Virus record (IMG/VR): IMGVR_UViG_3300037226_000003
Location: 1 to 27,558 of that record
Origin: a virus
Reading direction: 5' to 3' (one strand)
DNA: 27,558 nucleotides
The notes under the pieces were generated by a model, which made no database searches, was not told the origin of the DNA, and was given only the letters and a program-made list of their open reading frames with translations. Shown here piece after piece: positions 2,442-26,735 of this stretch. How positions within the stretch are numbered: the stretch's first letter is position 1; the number at the start of each line of letters is the position of its first letter. A program made the translations under genes and the position numbers.

Positions 2442-3425
2442 TTACTCCTCTCCATGAAATAGTTCTTTTATAGAATTTGATCCAGCTAATACAAATTCCC
2501 CATTATTATACATATCTAACAAATTATTGGAATTGAGATAAGTACCTGCACTCTTTATACCATAAGAGAATTCTCTTACAAATGTTTCTAGGGAATGTAC
2601 CTTAGTTAGATAGGTATCAAATCCTTCTACAGACTTAATTTGATATCCCATATTAGTTTGATGAGTTCTAGATGCCATACCATACAATTTACCATTATTA
2701 GGTGCTTCGTAAGTCTCAGCAAATAGTCTGCCAGACATACCAAATGCTGCACCGGCTACAATAGATTTAACTAAATCACCACTAGACCTTATTCCACCAT
2801 CTACTACAAGTCTACCAAGGAAAACATCGGGCATATTAAGTAATGCAGAAATAGTAGGAACAGACACACCAGTTACATTTCTGGTTGAACAATTAGAGCC
2901 TGAACCAATTCCAAATCTGACTAAATCACACCCACTTCTAAGTAGATTCATAGCTCCCTCACCAGTAACAACATTACCTGCCATAACTAGAGTATTAGAT
3001 GAATGAGTAATTGCATATTTCTTGATAGTAAGGCAGTAATCTAATACTGATTTAGTATACCCATTTGCTACATCTATCAGAATGATTTTGGGATTATACT
3101 GTAATAACCACTCAAAGTCTTGATTTAGTCTTACGGCTATACCAAAGTTCTTATCTATTAGCAAGTTTAATTCTGACTCTAATTCTTCATCAGAATCATA
3201 GAATCTATGTACAAACCCCAAACCACCTAAATCAGATAATTTAGATAAGAATTCCCCATTAGTAACTCCTACCATTGGGGAAGCAACTAGGGGAAAGTTT
3301 AATGTAAATGTATCAGTTAATTTAACTGAAATATCTACATTATCCCTTGATACTACTTTACTAGGTACTGGCCTAATTAATACATCCTGAAATTCTAATC
3401 CAGTATCACCAACAATTCTCTTCAT
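2442..3425 (-). CDS. IMP dehydrogenase / GMP reductase family enzyme
   Basis: A 327-aa TIM-barrel oxidoreductase of purine nucleotide interconversion. Visible are GLEFQDVLIRPVPSKV at the N-terminus, SPMVGVTN, GGLGFVHRF, IDVANGY, MAGNVVTGEGA, the catalytic loop GIGSGSNCSTR with the thioimidate cysteine, VDGGIRSSGD for phosphate binding, and the C-terminal GKLYGMAS. There is no CBS pair, and the length is close to bacterial GMP reductase (about 326-347 aa). GNVVTGE favours GMP reductase, while VTGVSVPT and GGIRSSGD are nearer IMPDH, so direction of use (GMP to IMP, or IMP to XMP) is open. SD AAGGAGAATAATA precedes the ATG. Its neighbours handle nucleotides. Confidence 0.85.
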   Translation of the reverse strand: MKRIVGDTGLEFQDVLIRPVPSKVVSRDNVDISVKLTDTFTLNFPLVASPMVGVTNGEFLSKLSDLGGLGFVHRFYDSDEELESELNLLIDKNFGIAVRLNQDFEWLLQYNPKIILIDVANGYTKSVLDYCLTIKKYAITHSSNTLVMAGNVVTGEGAMNLLRSGCDLVRFGIGSGSNCSTRNVTGVSVPTISALLNMPDVFLGRLVVDGGIRSSGDLVKSIVAGAAFGMSGRLFAETYEAPNNGKLYGMASRTHQTNMGYQIKSVEGFDTYLTKVHSLETFVREFSYGIKSAGTYLNSNNLLDMYNNGEFVLAGSNSIKELFHGEE

Positions 3426-6181: not shown

Positions 6182-6255
6182 TAGCGGAATCTGCACTCGC
6201 AACAGACGATGATAGCCTTATGGGGGCCACGAGACACTATTTCTCCATTTCCGCT
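6182..6255 (-). tRNA. tRNA-like gene with CAU anticodon and UGC-type T-loop (possibly degenerate)
   Basis: On the minus strand a 74-nt cloverleaf can be drawn. The acceptor is AGCGGAA / TTCCGCT, seven perfect pairs, with discriminator A and no encoded CCA. The anticodon stem is TGGCC/GGCTA (one G-U) with loop CCCATAA, placing CAT at 6222-6220. The T-stem is TCTGT/GCAGA (one G-U) with the 7-nt loop TGCGAGT abutting the acceptor. The D-stem is only three pairs (GAG/CTC). Odd points are A8-T9, C at position 33 in place of the near-universal U, no GG in the D-loop, and G at position 55. It could be a Met/Ile-type tRNA, a decayed gene, or a tRNA mimic. It sits between genes downstream of the 6386-6413 promoter. 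Confidence 0.5.
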
Positions 6256-7942: not shown

Positions 7943-8089
7943 TTATTCTTCATACTTTCCTATAAGCATAGTACCGCCAACTGCTACCATAATAAATCCA
8001 ATTATCACATTATACACACTTAATTCAGTAAATAACAGAATACACCCAATTACTCCTAATACTAGTCCAATCCACTTTGATGTTTTCAT
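7943..8089 (-). CDS. Small two-span membrane protein (48 aa)
   Basis: Begins MKTSKWIGLVLGVIG at the ATG 8089 with SD AAAGGAG. The upstream extension of this frame is the 3' end of the tRNA-like gene and is not coding. It has two hydrophobic segments (WIGLVLGVIGCILLF and VIIGFIMVAVGGTMLI) and a charged KYEE end. Function unknown. Confidence 0.6.
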   Translation of the reverse strand: MKTSKWIGLVLGVIGCILLFTELSVYNVIIGFIMVAVGGTMLIGKYEE

Positions 8090-8119: not shown

Positions 8120-8232
8120 ATTGGGAGTAGGGGCTTGCACCCTATTGCTCGCCACTAATCATCTCGTTGCCAGCTTCTTAGTTCTGGTCGCTATGGTTGC
8201 GCCGCTGTGATTACGACTATTACGCTTCCCAA
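8120..8232 (-). ncRNA. 113-nt tRNA-like structured RNA
   Basis: Between two genes, the minus strand reads TTGGGAA ... CTCCCAA (six pairs plus an A-C) closing a 113-nt element. Directly inside the 3' half is a perfect T-arm, TAGGG-TGCAAGC-CCCTA, as in a tRNA 3' end. The interior is too long for a normal tRNA. It contains CCAG...CTGG, GTCGT/GCGGC and GGCGC/GCG-A-CC hairpins that I cannot resolve into one cloverleaf. It may be a long-variable-arm tRNA, an interrupted tRNA or a tRNA mimic. The T-loop again has UGC in place of UUC, as in the 6182-6255 RNA. The region is visibly more GC-rich than its surroundings. Confidence 0.45.
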
Positions 8233-8240
8233 TTAATTAC

Positions 8241-9261: not shown

Positions 9262-9454
9262 CCTCTACAATCCCTTCCAATACTTTTATATTAATATAGT
9301 CGTTCTCAGCCAAAAACTTCAATAGATATGCTAAAGATGAAACGGATATAATCATAGCATTATTAGAGGAAATAAAGAAATCACTTCCACCATCTTGCTT
9401 GATTATAATCAGGTTCATACTTGGTATCTTAGATACTTGTATTCGAGATGGCAT
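9233..9454 (-). CDS. Small hypothetical protein (73 aa)
   Basis: 73 aa. The central part, NLIIIKQDGGSDFFISSNNAMIISVSSLAYLLKFLAEND, is alternately hydrophobic and likely folds as strands plus a helix. I know similar stand-alone phage proteins but no function. GAAGGG lies about nine bases before the ATG at 9454. Both ends overlap neighbours, a sign of tight coupling with the kinase gene. Confidence 0.6.
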   Translation of the reverse strand: MPSRIQVSKIPSMNLIIIKQDGGSDFFISSNNAMIISVSSLAYLLKFLAENDYINIKVLEGIVEDVRNQTDVV

Positions 9455-23963: not shown

Positions 23964-26735
23964 TTGCCAATAGAAGAAAAGTGTCACCAAACAGATGTGG
24001 ATATGATGATATTCGAGTTGATTCGGAATCCTGTTATGCTGTGTGAGTTTATGTATAACTACGATAAACTTGAAACAGAGGAACCATTTGAATTAACTTG
24101 GTATCAGAAGGAAATATTACTAGACTTTAGTAATTATGTAAGTATAGTAGAAGCCCGTGCCACTGGTAAGACTATGGCCTTAACTGCATTAATATTGTGG
24201 TTATTAATATTCAAAACATTTCCAGAAGACTATATTGTATACACTGTACCATCTAAAGTTCATCTTGAGCCCGTATTCTCCAATCTAATTAGGATGTTAC
24301 GCTCCAATACATTCCTGAGACACTTTATAGAACGAGCAGGAGGAATTAATTCTTCTGATTTTACTATCAAGCTAACTAATCAATCCCTATTGATGTGCCG
24401 TATAGCTGGACAGACTGGAACTGGAGCTACAGTAATTGGATTACATAGTCCATTTGTTATAGTAGACGAATCAGGTTACTACCCTTGGGGAACTTGGGTT
24501 GAATTACAACCAACACTTAATACTTTTACTGATGGATATAAATTAATGGTAGCTGGTGTTCCTACAGGAATAAGAGAGAAAAGTGTAAATTATCACTGTG
24601 ACCAAGAAGACTCCAATTATTCTAAGCACCATATTACTGCTTATCAGAATCCCAGATTCACTGATGAAGATAAACGTAAGGCCATAGATCAATATGGTGG
24701 TGAAGACTCAGATGATTATATTCATCTAGTGTGTTTTGCTCCTAATACTCCTATAATTACAGATAATGACATTAAAGACATAGTAGACATACAAGTAGGA
24801 GATACTGTTTTAACTCACAAAGGGGGTTGGGGAAAAGTAGTAAAAACTTTTGAAAGAGATTATAATGGGGATGCAATAGAGATTAAAACAGAGCATTTGT
24901 ATAAACCAATTATATGTACACCAGATCATCCTATTTATGGAATGAAACTCAAAAAGGTTACATGGAGTGGAAATAAACCGTATGCTATATGGAAGGGAAA
25001 TCTTAATAAAAATATAAGACCAAATAATATTAAATCACTTTTCCCTAGTTTTATTGCTGCAAAAGAGTATACTGCTTTAGACAGAGTTAGCTTTCCTAAT
25101 GTTAAATATACTAGACATCTTCCAAAGTATATTGATTTTTCAGAATTTGGTGTAGTTAAAGAAGGTAGTGTATATGCTAGTTGTAGAACAAGAAATGAAA
25201 GTATACGTTCATTACGTGGAAAATTTATTAAAAGAACGGAGCTAGATTCAGACTTACTATTCTTACTTGGACTATTTACTGCGGAAGGGTCTAATCATGA
25301 AGAAAGAGGCCAGTGTTCTATTGCTTTGAACATTTTGGAACAGGGTATTGTAGATAAGTCTAAAAGAGTTCTTGATACTTTGGGATTGCATTATTGGGAA
25401 ACTTTTGCAGGAAATGGTAGATACTTAGTATTCAGTTCAGTTATATTCTCAAAGTTTATTTCTAAGTACATAGGACATGGGGCACACAATAAACACGTTC
25501 CATCTTTTCTTGTCGGTGTAACTTCACAAGAATTATTACCATATCTTGAGGGTTTATTCGCTGGGGATGGAAGTTTAAGTCTACACAATAAAGATATGAA
25601 ACAAACCTATACTACTGTATCAAAAGATTTGGCATACGGAATTTTACACATACTATATGGTTTTTCTATTCACCCATCACTTATATATTCTGCTGGTGGT
25701 AAAGAAATACAAATATATCATAATGCCAAAAAAACAACCACAACTGGTTGTTATACAATAGCATTAAATGTAAAAGAAATAAAGACCATATACTGTAACC
25801 TAAAAGATACTTTTGATACATTTGACAATGGAGACCTCTCTATTAGAATTAGAAACATAAAAACAATACCCTATTCTGGAAAGGTTTACAATTTAGAAGT
25901 AGAAGGTGATAACTCGTATGTAACCTGTGGGTTCTCTGCTCATAACTGTGCAGAACATGGAAAACCAATTTTCTCATTATTTGATCGTTCTTCATTTCTA
26001 CTGAAGTCAGAACCTGTGTATAAATTGGAATTAAGTGGACTACAATTACAAGAGAACTTGTCTGAATATTTGACTAAGATATCATCATTACCCTCAATAT
26101 CTGATAAAAGACTTAGAACAATAATGGGAATAGATTTAGGTTATACTGAACCTACTGCCATTCAAATCTTATATCTAGATAGTGAAGACAGAATTCATTT
26201 TCATGCACGTATAAGAATGGACAAAGTTTCTTATACAATTCAAGAGAAACTAATAGATATCCTAGATACTAAATATAATCCAATTATTATAGGAATGGAT
26301 AAGGGTAACTCTGGTATGTCTACACTACATCATTTACAAAATGATAATGACTATATACATAAGAATTATACTAAGAGACTAATACCAATAGATTTTTCAT
26401 CCTCAATATCATTAGGATTTGATAGTGAAGGTAAAGAAATAAAGAATAAGACTAAACCATTCTCAGTTTCTGCTCTACAGGATTATTCCAATAATCAAAA
26501 GATAATTTATTCTACTATGGATTTGGAAATGGTAACAGAACTGGAACGTATGACCTACTCTAAGAGTGTTAGTGGGGATATAACATATAAGACATTAACA
26601 GTCAGGGGAGGTAAGCGTGGAGAAGACCATTTCACTTCTGCATTATTATGTGGGGTATTGGCCTATTACTTAGAGAATGAATCTTTCAGAGTTAATACTA
26701 AACAGAAAAGTTTATTGAAGCCCATTTGGGTTTAA
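23964..26735 (+). CDS. terL: Terminase large subunit interrupted by an intein
   Basis: 923 aa precursor; 518 aa after splicing. The ATPase domain has the adenine-side Q in LTWYQKEILL, Walker A EARATGKT (63-70), Walker B FVIVDES (164-170) and the coupling MVAGVPTG motif. The intein occupies residues 257-661. The nuclease follows: IMGIDLGYTEPTA (first Asp), IIGMDKGNSGMS (second Asp) and RGEDHFTSALLCG (late Asp). It cuts and packages phage DNA into the head through the portal encoded next. Start is a TTG at 23964, after AAGAGGTAAAT. The exteins join as IHLV-CAEHGKPIF at a conserved stretch between ATPase and nuclease. Confidence 0.92.
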   Translation: MPIEEKCHQTDVDMMIFELIRNPVMLCEFMYNYDKLETEEPFELTWYQKEILLDFSNYVSIVEARATGKTMALTALILWLLIFKTFPEDYIVYTVPSKVHLEPVFSNLIRMLRSNTFLRHFIERAGGINSSDFTIKLTNQSLLMCRIAGQTGTGATVIGLHSPFVIVDESGYYPWGTWVELQPTLNTFTDGYKLMVAGVPTGIREKSVNYHCDQEDSNYSKHHITAYQNPRFTDEDKRKAIDQYGGEDSDDYIHLVCFAPNTPIITDNDIKDIVDIQVGDTVLTHKGGWGKVVKTFERDYNGDAIEIKTEHLYKPIICTPDHPIYGMKLKKVTWSGNKPYAIWKGNLNKNIRPNNIKSLFPSFIAAKEYTALDRVSFPNVKYTRHLPKYIDFSEFGVVKEGSVYASCRTRNESIRSLRGKFIKRTELDSDLLFLLGLFTAEGSNHEERGQCSIALNILEQGIVDKSKRVLDTLGLHYWETFAGNGRYLVFSSVIFSKFISKYIGHGAHNKHVPSFLVGVTSQELLPYLEGLFAGDGSLSLHNKDMKQTYTTVSKDLAYGILHILYGFSIHPSLIYSAGGKEIQIYHNAKKTTTTGCYTIALNVKEIKTIYCNLKDTFDTFDNGDLSIRIRNIKTIPYSGKVYNLEVEGDNSYVTCGFSAHNCAEHGKPIFSLFDRSSFLLKSEPVYKLELSGLQLQENLSEYLTKISSLPSISDKRLRTIMGIDLGYTEPTAIQILYLDSEDRIHFHARIRMDKVSYTIQEKLIDILDTKYNPIIIGMDKGNSGMSTLHHLQNDNDYIHKNYTKRLIPIDFSSSISLGFDSEGKEIKNKTKPFSVSALQDYSNNQKIIYSTMDLEMVTELERMTYSKSVSGDITYKTLTVRGGKRGEDHFTSALLCGVLAYYLENESFRVNTKQKSLLKPIWV
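24732..25946 (+). mobile_element. LAGLIDADG homing intein in terL (405 aa)
   Basis: Begins with Cys1 (CFAPNTPIITDNDIKDI...VGDTVLTHKG, block A). Block B is IICTPDHPIYG (intein residues 60-70). It ends VYNLEVEGDNSYV (block F) and CGFSAHN (block G, His404-Asn405), followed by extein Cys+1. Between them are two LAGLIDADG motifs, FLLGLFTAEGS (about 177-187) and YLEGLFAGDGS (about 271-281), each with an acidic residue near its end, so the endonuclease looks intact. All splicing residues are present: Cys1, the block B His, penultimate His, Asn and Cys+1. Lysine codons here favour AAA, whereas the phage genes around it use AAG more often, which fits an independent origin. Confidence 0.93.

Follow-up and report, generated by a model that had tools for sequence, protein, structure and literature searches.

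What kind of RNA is encoded between the holin-like gene and the gene for a small membrane protein in this phage operon: a tRNA that is interrupted or carries a long arm, or something new with the ends of a tRNA? The window, the whole stretch of DNA analysed here, spans a virus record of 27,558 bases, whose minus strand carries a replication operon that includes genes for a family A DNA polymerase, a RecA/UvsX-like protein, DnaB, an exonuclease, a kinase and others; the names SSB-like, resolvase and holin-like were assigned from context. Sigma-70-like promoters (TTGACA, TATAAT) are directly readable in several of the records, and the hosts are therefore taken to be bacteria. Elsewhere the window encodes a protein of the IMP dehydrogenase / GMP reductase family (2442-3425, minus strand) and a large protein, judged by its context to be probably the terminase large subunit, with an intein that bears a LAGLIDADG domain (23964-26735, plus strand).

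An earlier note on this DNA had described a 113-nt RNA with tRNA-like ends at 8120-8232. The observation of such an RNA is confirmed, but the element lies on the minus strand and is one nucleotide longer. The closing stem that had been claimed is present and consists of seven Watson-Crick pairs (P1, 8233-8227 with 8126-8120), and a single unpaired C separates the T-arm-like hairpin from the 3' strand of this helix; helix and unpaired C together define an element of 114 nt, 8233-8120, reading ATTGGGA...TAGGG-TGCAAGC-CCCTA-C-TCCCAAT, and referred to here as RNA113. Its parts and neighbours are listed in Table 1. The least certain part is P3, in which a constrained fold pairs AAUCA with UGAUU and then CAGC with GCUG, and places a hairpin with the loop AACCAUA after them.

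Table 1. Coordinates of RNA113, its parts and neighbouring features in the window
Feature	Positions	Strand	Basis or remark
RNA113, whole tRNA-like noncoding RNA	8120..8233	-	exact ends given by covariance models R1 and R2 and by leave-one-out R3
P1, 5' strand, acceptor-like	8227..8233	-	both-side changes at 7/7 pairs, 6 copies
P2, D-arm-like hairpin GCG-UAAUAGU-CGU	8213..8225	-	GCGTAAYAGKCGT common to G003, G017, L248; variants in G014, G036
P3, variable third arm, fold tentative	8157..8212	-	constrained fold; size differs among copies
Linker, P3 to 3' hairpin	8145..8156	-	A-rich in most copies
P5, T-arm-like hairpin UAGGG-UGCAAGC-CCCUA	8128..8144	-	conserved part GGG/CCC and loop YGYAANY
UAC spacer	8127..8129	-	URC in 6/6 copies; UA also paired in RNA113
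P1, 3' strand	8120..8126	-	both-side changes, 6 copies
Upstream holin-like gene, 121 aa	8241..8606	-	ORF list; relatives have homologs
Downstream gene, 48-aa small membrane protein	7943..8089	-	start 31 nt after RNA113
Second tRNA-like RNA, cloverleaf, CAT, G55	6183..6255	-	outside the RNA113 family

Helices may come together in this way by chance, and the window itself speaks on both sides of that explanation. A closing helix of seven Watson-Crick pairs adjoining a five-pair hairpin with the loop T[TG]CRANN occurs twice, in RNA113 and at 6255-6183, against a mean of 0.015 in 400 dinucleotide shuffles, none of which reached two and six of which reached one; when the T-stem is required to be fully Watson-Crick, RNA113 is the one case observed, against none in the 400 shuffles. 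Once the loop sequence is left out of account, chance supplies such helix pairs just as readily (1 in the window, a mean of 1.98 in the shuffles). The MFE of RNA113 is likewise unremarkable (z -0.94, with 33 of 200 shuffles equally good) and the T-arm is absent from the unconstrained MFE structure, so that the interior hairpins are unreadable from energy alone. Because the folding energy is usual and loop-blind helix pairs are common, comparison with relatives was needed. In composition RNA113 stands out, with a GC content of 50.9% in a window of 33%, and only 0.03% of 114-nt stretches are equally GC-rich. ARAGORN in tRNA mode reported no tRNA gene at RNA113, Rfam gave no match above the gathering threshold to group I introns or any other family in the window, and RF00005 did not match RNA113 even at E<=10.

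Related phages from IMG/VR, reached via DnaB, resolvase, primase and kinase and standing at roughly 35-55% protein identity, add five copies of 69-121 nt, the six being those of the window, G003, L248/G058, G014, G017 and G036. In the gap downstream of the SSB gene, G003 and G017 have RNAs that carry the 13-mer GCGTAAYAGKCGT in common with RNA113. Searching the viral collection for GAGAGCGTAAYAGGCGT returned three stretches, one in G017 and two with the G003 sequence, from G003 itself and from another record, and a scan of 2.9 million contigs for the pattern AGCGTAATAGKCGTWHT returned 21, 19 of them within open frames of 137 codons or more; the remaining two, in G017 and L248, have P1 and P5. 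When the records were scanned under strict structural criteria, four matches appeared, against none in reversed sequence, and G014 was added, whereas a loose scan did no better than its control (14 against 15; 11 against 7 in an earlier version), and only the strict scan is used as evidence. With covariance models, whose E-values are rough, the model built from five sequences (R1) found G036 at E 7e-10, the model of six (R2) found all six copies among 52 records with the next best at E 0.028, and the model from which the window was left out (R3) found RNA113 at identical ends, with 36.2 bits and E 2.6e-7, as its sole match in the window. Pairing of P1 and P5 was a criterion in the searches that gave G014 and G017, and it belonged to the model that gave G036; as an independent case L248 is the cleanest, since it was found by the DNA pattern of P2 alone. 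It belongs to the same phage clade as the window, and its RNA follows a kinase gene and a holin-like gene, as in the window (the latter of 68 aa in L248, matched by position).

Other candidates were set aside. A stretch in G012 (56243-56317) scored E 0.003 with R1 and 4.2e-4 with R3, gave nothing at 0.5 with R2, and is left uncounted as a mere candidate. RNAs of 51-63 nt with the loop GTGNNAGT, in the same slot of G005/L002, G008 and G014, were not significant with R1-R3, and the first motif scan behind that idea listed 8 rows against 12 and 9 in two controls. The record with nearly identical proteins, G001/L004, ends at about window position 9429, so that the RNA113 region lies outside it. 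BLAST of RNA113 or its relatives against phages gave short chance matches only, and blastn against 23 records nothing worth keeping; Rfam searches of the copies and their surroundings found nothing near the gathering score except the tRNAs (RF00005) that adjoin the G014 copy. The P3 core CGGAAAAGGCWAACGAACCG, common to G003 and L248, had one match in bacterial genomes, which lay in GC-rich sequence and had none of the other parts.

From 5' to 3', the six copies share P1, one A, P2, a variable P3, a linker, P5, URC and P1'. P1 has seven pairs in four copies and five in G017 and G036; P2 follows the consensus GCG-UAANAGK-CGU (UCG in G014) and leads into a conserved stretch; P3 ranges from a 5-bp mini-hairpin (G017) through a hairpin of 7-8 bp (G014) to arms of about 50 nt (window, G003, L248); and P5 comprises three pairs, the loop YGYAANY and then URC in every copy. 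The perfect 5-bp T-arm of the earlier note is to be amended: three of its pairs are conserved, but the remainder is the conserved URC spacer, and the outer UA/UA pairs are particular to RNA113. Changes on both sides were found at 9 of the 13 pairs (7/7 in P1, 2/3 in P5), with a covariation score of 0.687 compared with 0.213 when shuffled (0/500 reached the observed score) and at most 0.217 when slid; with the window left out, 7 of 13 pairs changed on both sides and the score was 0.615. The P2 pairs do not covary, two of the three being invariant, and P2 is for this reason supported by its conserved sequence. Between G003 and L248 the helix around CGGAAAAGGCWAACGAACCG appears compensatory in the folds, by eye (GUAUG/CAUAC against GCACU/AGUGC).

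The compensatory changes for which the earlier note proposed to look in related phages are therefore present. Chance, in spite of the ordinary MFE and the abundance of helix pairs without the loop motif, is refuted at the sequence level by the leave-one-out match and by the covariation that no shuffle equalled, and we give it next to no credence. Among the identities that the note had put forward, it was the novel non-coding RNA that fitted, with six copies, compensatory changes and no match in Rfam or ARAGORN. RNA113 seems to represent a type of phage RNA that had not been listed before, and no description of the family was recognised in the literature by title and the start of abstracts.

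How does it stand to tRNA? The parts follow the order of the cloverleaf (acceptor, D-arm, third arm, T-arm), but a conserved 5-bp stem with a 7-nt loop and U33 is absent from the six copies, and the copies shown have no encoded CCA and no constant discriminator. A long-arm tRNA, one of the note's suggestions, is contradicted by third arms of differing length and by the lack of a common 7-nt anticodon loop in the six copies. Nor is RNA113 an interrupted tRNA, as single excision performed no better than on shuffled interiors (46/200 and 30/40 equally good). Three further oversized RNAs, from related phages, do yield tRNAs in this test. More generally, RNA113 might be a decayed, long-arm or interrupted tRNA without a function of its own, a suggestion to which the slots shared with tRNAs and the occurrence of interrupted tRNAs in three relatives lend something; it is nevertheless quite improbable, for no anticodon arm can be restored, and P1, P2, P5 and URC have been kept across phages about 50% diverged, with compensatory changes that decay does not produce.

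The interrupted tRNA genes are at L190:6542-6660 (+), G012:49372-49483 = L066:252-363 (+) and G004:5897-6020 = L003:6129-6252 (+). Removal of 47, 41 and 54 nt, respectively, leaves a canonical tRNA-Asn(GTT) (1/200 and 0/40 shuffles equally good), tRNA-Ala(TGC) (6/200 and 0/40) and tRNA-Ile(GAT) (2/200 and 1/40); the inserts lie in the 5' strand of the anticodon stem, and their removal gives 5/5 anticodon stems. Inserts of 41-54 nt are far below the size of group I introns. One review places all phage introns known by 2014 in protein-coding genes (PMC3984707). RtcB was not found in L190, G012 or G004, records that may be fragments. A second unusual type comprises tRNA-Arg-like genes with the anticodon TCT or CCT and a perfect or near-perfect acceptor and T-arm (G017:21275-21349, G008:28265-28337, G009:66442-66516 and G011:454-527, all on the minus strand, and perhaps L173:6582-6656 on the plus strand), in which the anticodon arm precedes a D-loop-like AATTGG/AACGG stretch, as if the two had been swapped. 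The tRNA arrays also contain a repeat, GCAACNCATA, mostly within ACAGCAACNCATA, at G010:10429, 10505, 10971 and 11108 (+) and at L190:6357, 6602 and 6832 (+); several of these repeats are closed by helices of 7-8 bp that differ in sequence, and one is inside the L190 tRNA insert.

The contact between positions 18 and 55 in the tRNA elbow is usually treated as near-invariant. The earlier note had taken the G55 shared by RNA113 and the second tRNA-like RNA as a sign of a common design. The second RNA (6255-6183), with the loop TGCGAGT, the D-loop AATAGTG and a complete cloverleaf as its MFE structure, falls outside the family by covariance model, but G55 does go together with A18 G19 in place of GG, in real tRNAs as well as in all six family members. 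Structural tRNAs were counted in 168 loci or records, where 236 rows passed the threshold, compared with 5 in the reversed control. The D-loop had GG in 228 of the 232 rows in which position 55 is T or C, and in none of the four with G55 (Fisher 5.6e-7), one of these four (L218) being probably false. The credible G55 tRNAs, namely tRNA-Phe of G012 (ATGTAGTA), tRNA-Ile of G007 (AACAGATA) and the second RNA of the window, have D-loops with A18 G19, and the family members (6/6) combine AANAG with G55, that is, the same A18/G55. G19 goes with C56 in four copies; G003 and L248 have U56 and no matching change at position 19. These observations support a reading of P2 and P5 as the D and T sides of an elbow in which A18 would contact G55, and the note's interpretation as a whole is partly supported. 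The second RNA has a CAT anticodon with C33 in place of U33, and its cloverleaf was missed by Rfam and by ARAGORN in tRNA mode, being found only in the mitochondrial mode of the latter. Two further tRNAs, G013:17063-17134 (-) and L158:546-632 (+), have U56 and a D-loop GA for GG, suggesting that A19-U56 may replace G19-C56 in them.

In G003, G017 and G036 the RNA follows SSB, and the next gene is the one before dnaB; in G014 it is the first RNA behind a sigma-70-like promoter, where it heads a tRNA array, 3 nt before a tRNA. The slot downstream of SSB holds other RNAs with tRNA-like ends in G007, G008, G014 and G016. In the corresponding gap of G003 (18399-17579, minus strand), further helix-closed RNAs apparently stand head to tail before the family member, and one of them has GGGTTCAAATCCC just before its closing strand (both by eye). 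Directly at RNA113 neither a promoter nor a terminator can be made out, and it is thus regarded as part of the operon transcript. This would suit a cis-regulatory leader, riboswitch-like or protein-binding, that altered the expression of the next gene from between a stop codon and the following ribosome-binding site. A start codon does lie some 20-30 nt after P1' in four of the six copies (in L248 the RNA is followed by 20 nt before the contig stops), and such closeness would agree with a role in cis; yet the next gene is variously that of the small membrane protein, the pre-dnaB gene or a tRNA, the two slots are unrelated, and neither a terminator nor conserved pairing with the ribosome-binding site was seen. 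A leader of this type we hold to be improbable, although the likeliest of the alternatives. Slots in common with tRNAs and changing neighbours favour a role in trans.

A role in trans could also consist in binding tRNA, if P2 and P5 were two interdigitating T-loops that stacked on the tRNA elbow. Short hairpins with T-loop-like loops of 7 nt flank P1 in all six copies, and the GTPase centre of 23S rRNA contains GCGUAAUAG. Two interdigitated T-loops bind the tRNA elbow in T-box Stem I, RNase P and the 23S L1 stalk, three RNA classes to which more are expected to be added (PMC4810234). RNA113 resembles these in its two adjacent short hairpins of T-loop type, but is unlike any of them in size and surroundings, and of the two loops P5 matches the pentaloop U-N-N-R-A, whereas P2 has a pyrimidine at position 4 in five of six copies. 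The AAYAG of P2, on the other hand, matches AAYGG, a pattern found in the D-loops of these phages' own tRNAs. We rate tRNA binding slightly below the leader.

Among known RNAs, tRNA (RF00005) shares with RNA113 the 7-bp closing helix, the D-arm-like and T-arm-like hairpins, the cloverleaf order and the intergenic slots; RNA113 differs in having no decoding arm, a three-pair T-arm with URC, A18/G55 and no CCA. In Staphylococcus, the non-proteinogenic tRNA-Gly species of the cell wall have UGC for T-Psi-C and an altered D-loop, in which they are like RNA113, but they keep the anticodon arm and are charged. Such tRNAs have lost elements and thereby escape EF-Tu, according to PMC9976931. The RAGATH-21 consensus (RF03097) has a hairpin with a UGCAAUU-type loop just before its closing helix, as in the family; the match scored 14.9 bits, where the cut-off is 70.3 (E 3.5), and did not extend to P2. 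Mimicry of tRNA is well known from plant RNA viruses. By imitating the elbow, viral RNAs gain access to host factors that bind tRNA; tRNA-like structures of the TYMV type (RF00233) would share such imitation with RNA113, with an otherwise divergent topology (PMC4810234). L248 gave a weak, below-threshold match to RF00233 (14.5 bits, gathering 40); TYMV-type structures are the 3' ends of plant RNA virus genomes, whereas RNA113 is an internal gene of a DNA phage and showed no sequence relation to them. A conserved non-decoding tRNA-mimic RNA gene of DNA phages was not found in the literature searched.

The explanation we favour, with about even confidence, is that RNA113 belongs to a small family of noncoding RNAs, conserved in phages, that reproduce a tRNA's outer frame and putatively act in trans as tRNA mimics. 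The family, its sequence motifs, its compensatory pairs and its intergenic slots, occupied in sister phages by tRNAs or RNAs with tRNA-like ends, are directly established. Beside the 7-bp acceptor-like closing helix, the D-arm-like and T-arm-like hairpins would meet as a tRNA-type elbow, with A18-G55 presumably in place of G18-U55 between the two loops and a variable, non-decoding arm in place of the anticodon arm. Enzymes that process tRNA may cut the RNA from the operon transcript, and the product would then act as a mimic, most likely by occupying a host factor that handles tRNA; candidates are a defence system's tRNA nuclease, an enzyme of tRNA modification or the machinery of processing. 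This decoy step is the least certain part, and counted against mimicry is the T-arm of three conserved pairs and a spacer, rather than five pairs joined to the acceptor. A more specific version is decidedly more tentative: a dedicated non-decoding tRNA mimic or elbow-binding RNA with an A18-G55 elbow, directed in trans against host tRNA-targeting defences or tRNA-handling enzymes and traded between tRNA-gene slots.

Phage tRNAs are now regarded as counters to defences that cut tRNA. Their use as a way round tRNA-targeting defences is the subject of PMC10264068, in which the terms D-loop, T-loop and intron have zero occurrences. If the explanation is true, an RNA with nothing of a tRNA but its frame would lend itself naturally to use as a decoy, and the idea that phage tRNAs are set against host defences would become directly testable. 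The A18-G55 exchange, occurring in genuine tRNAs as well as in the RNA113 family, would likewise offer a clean double-mutant test of the elbow contact.
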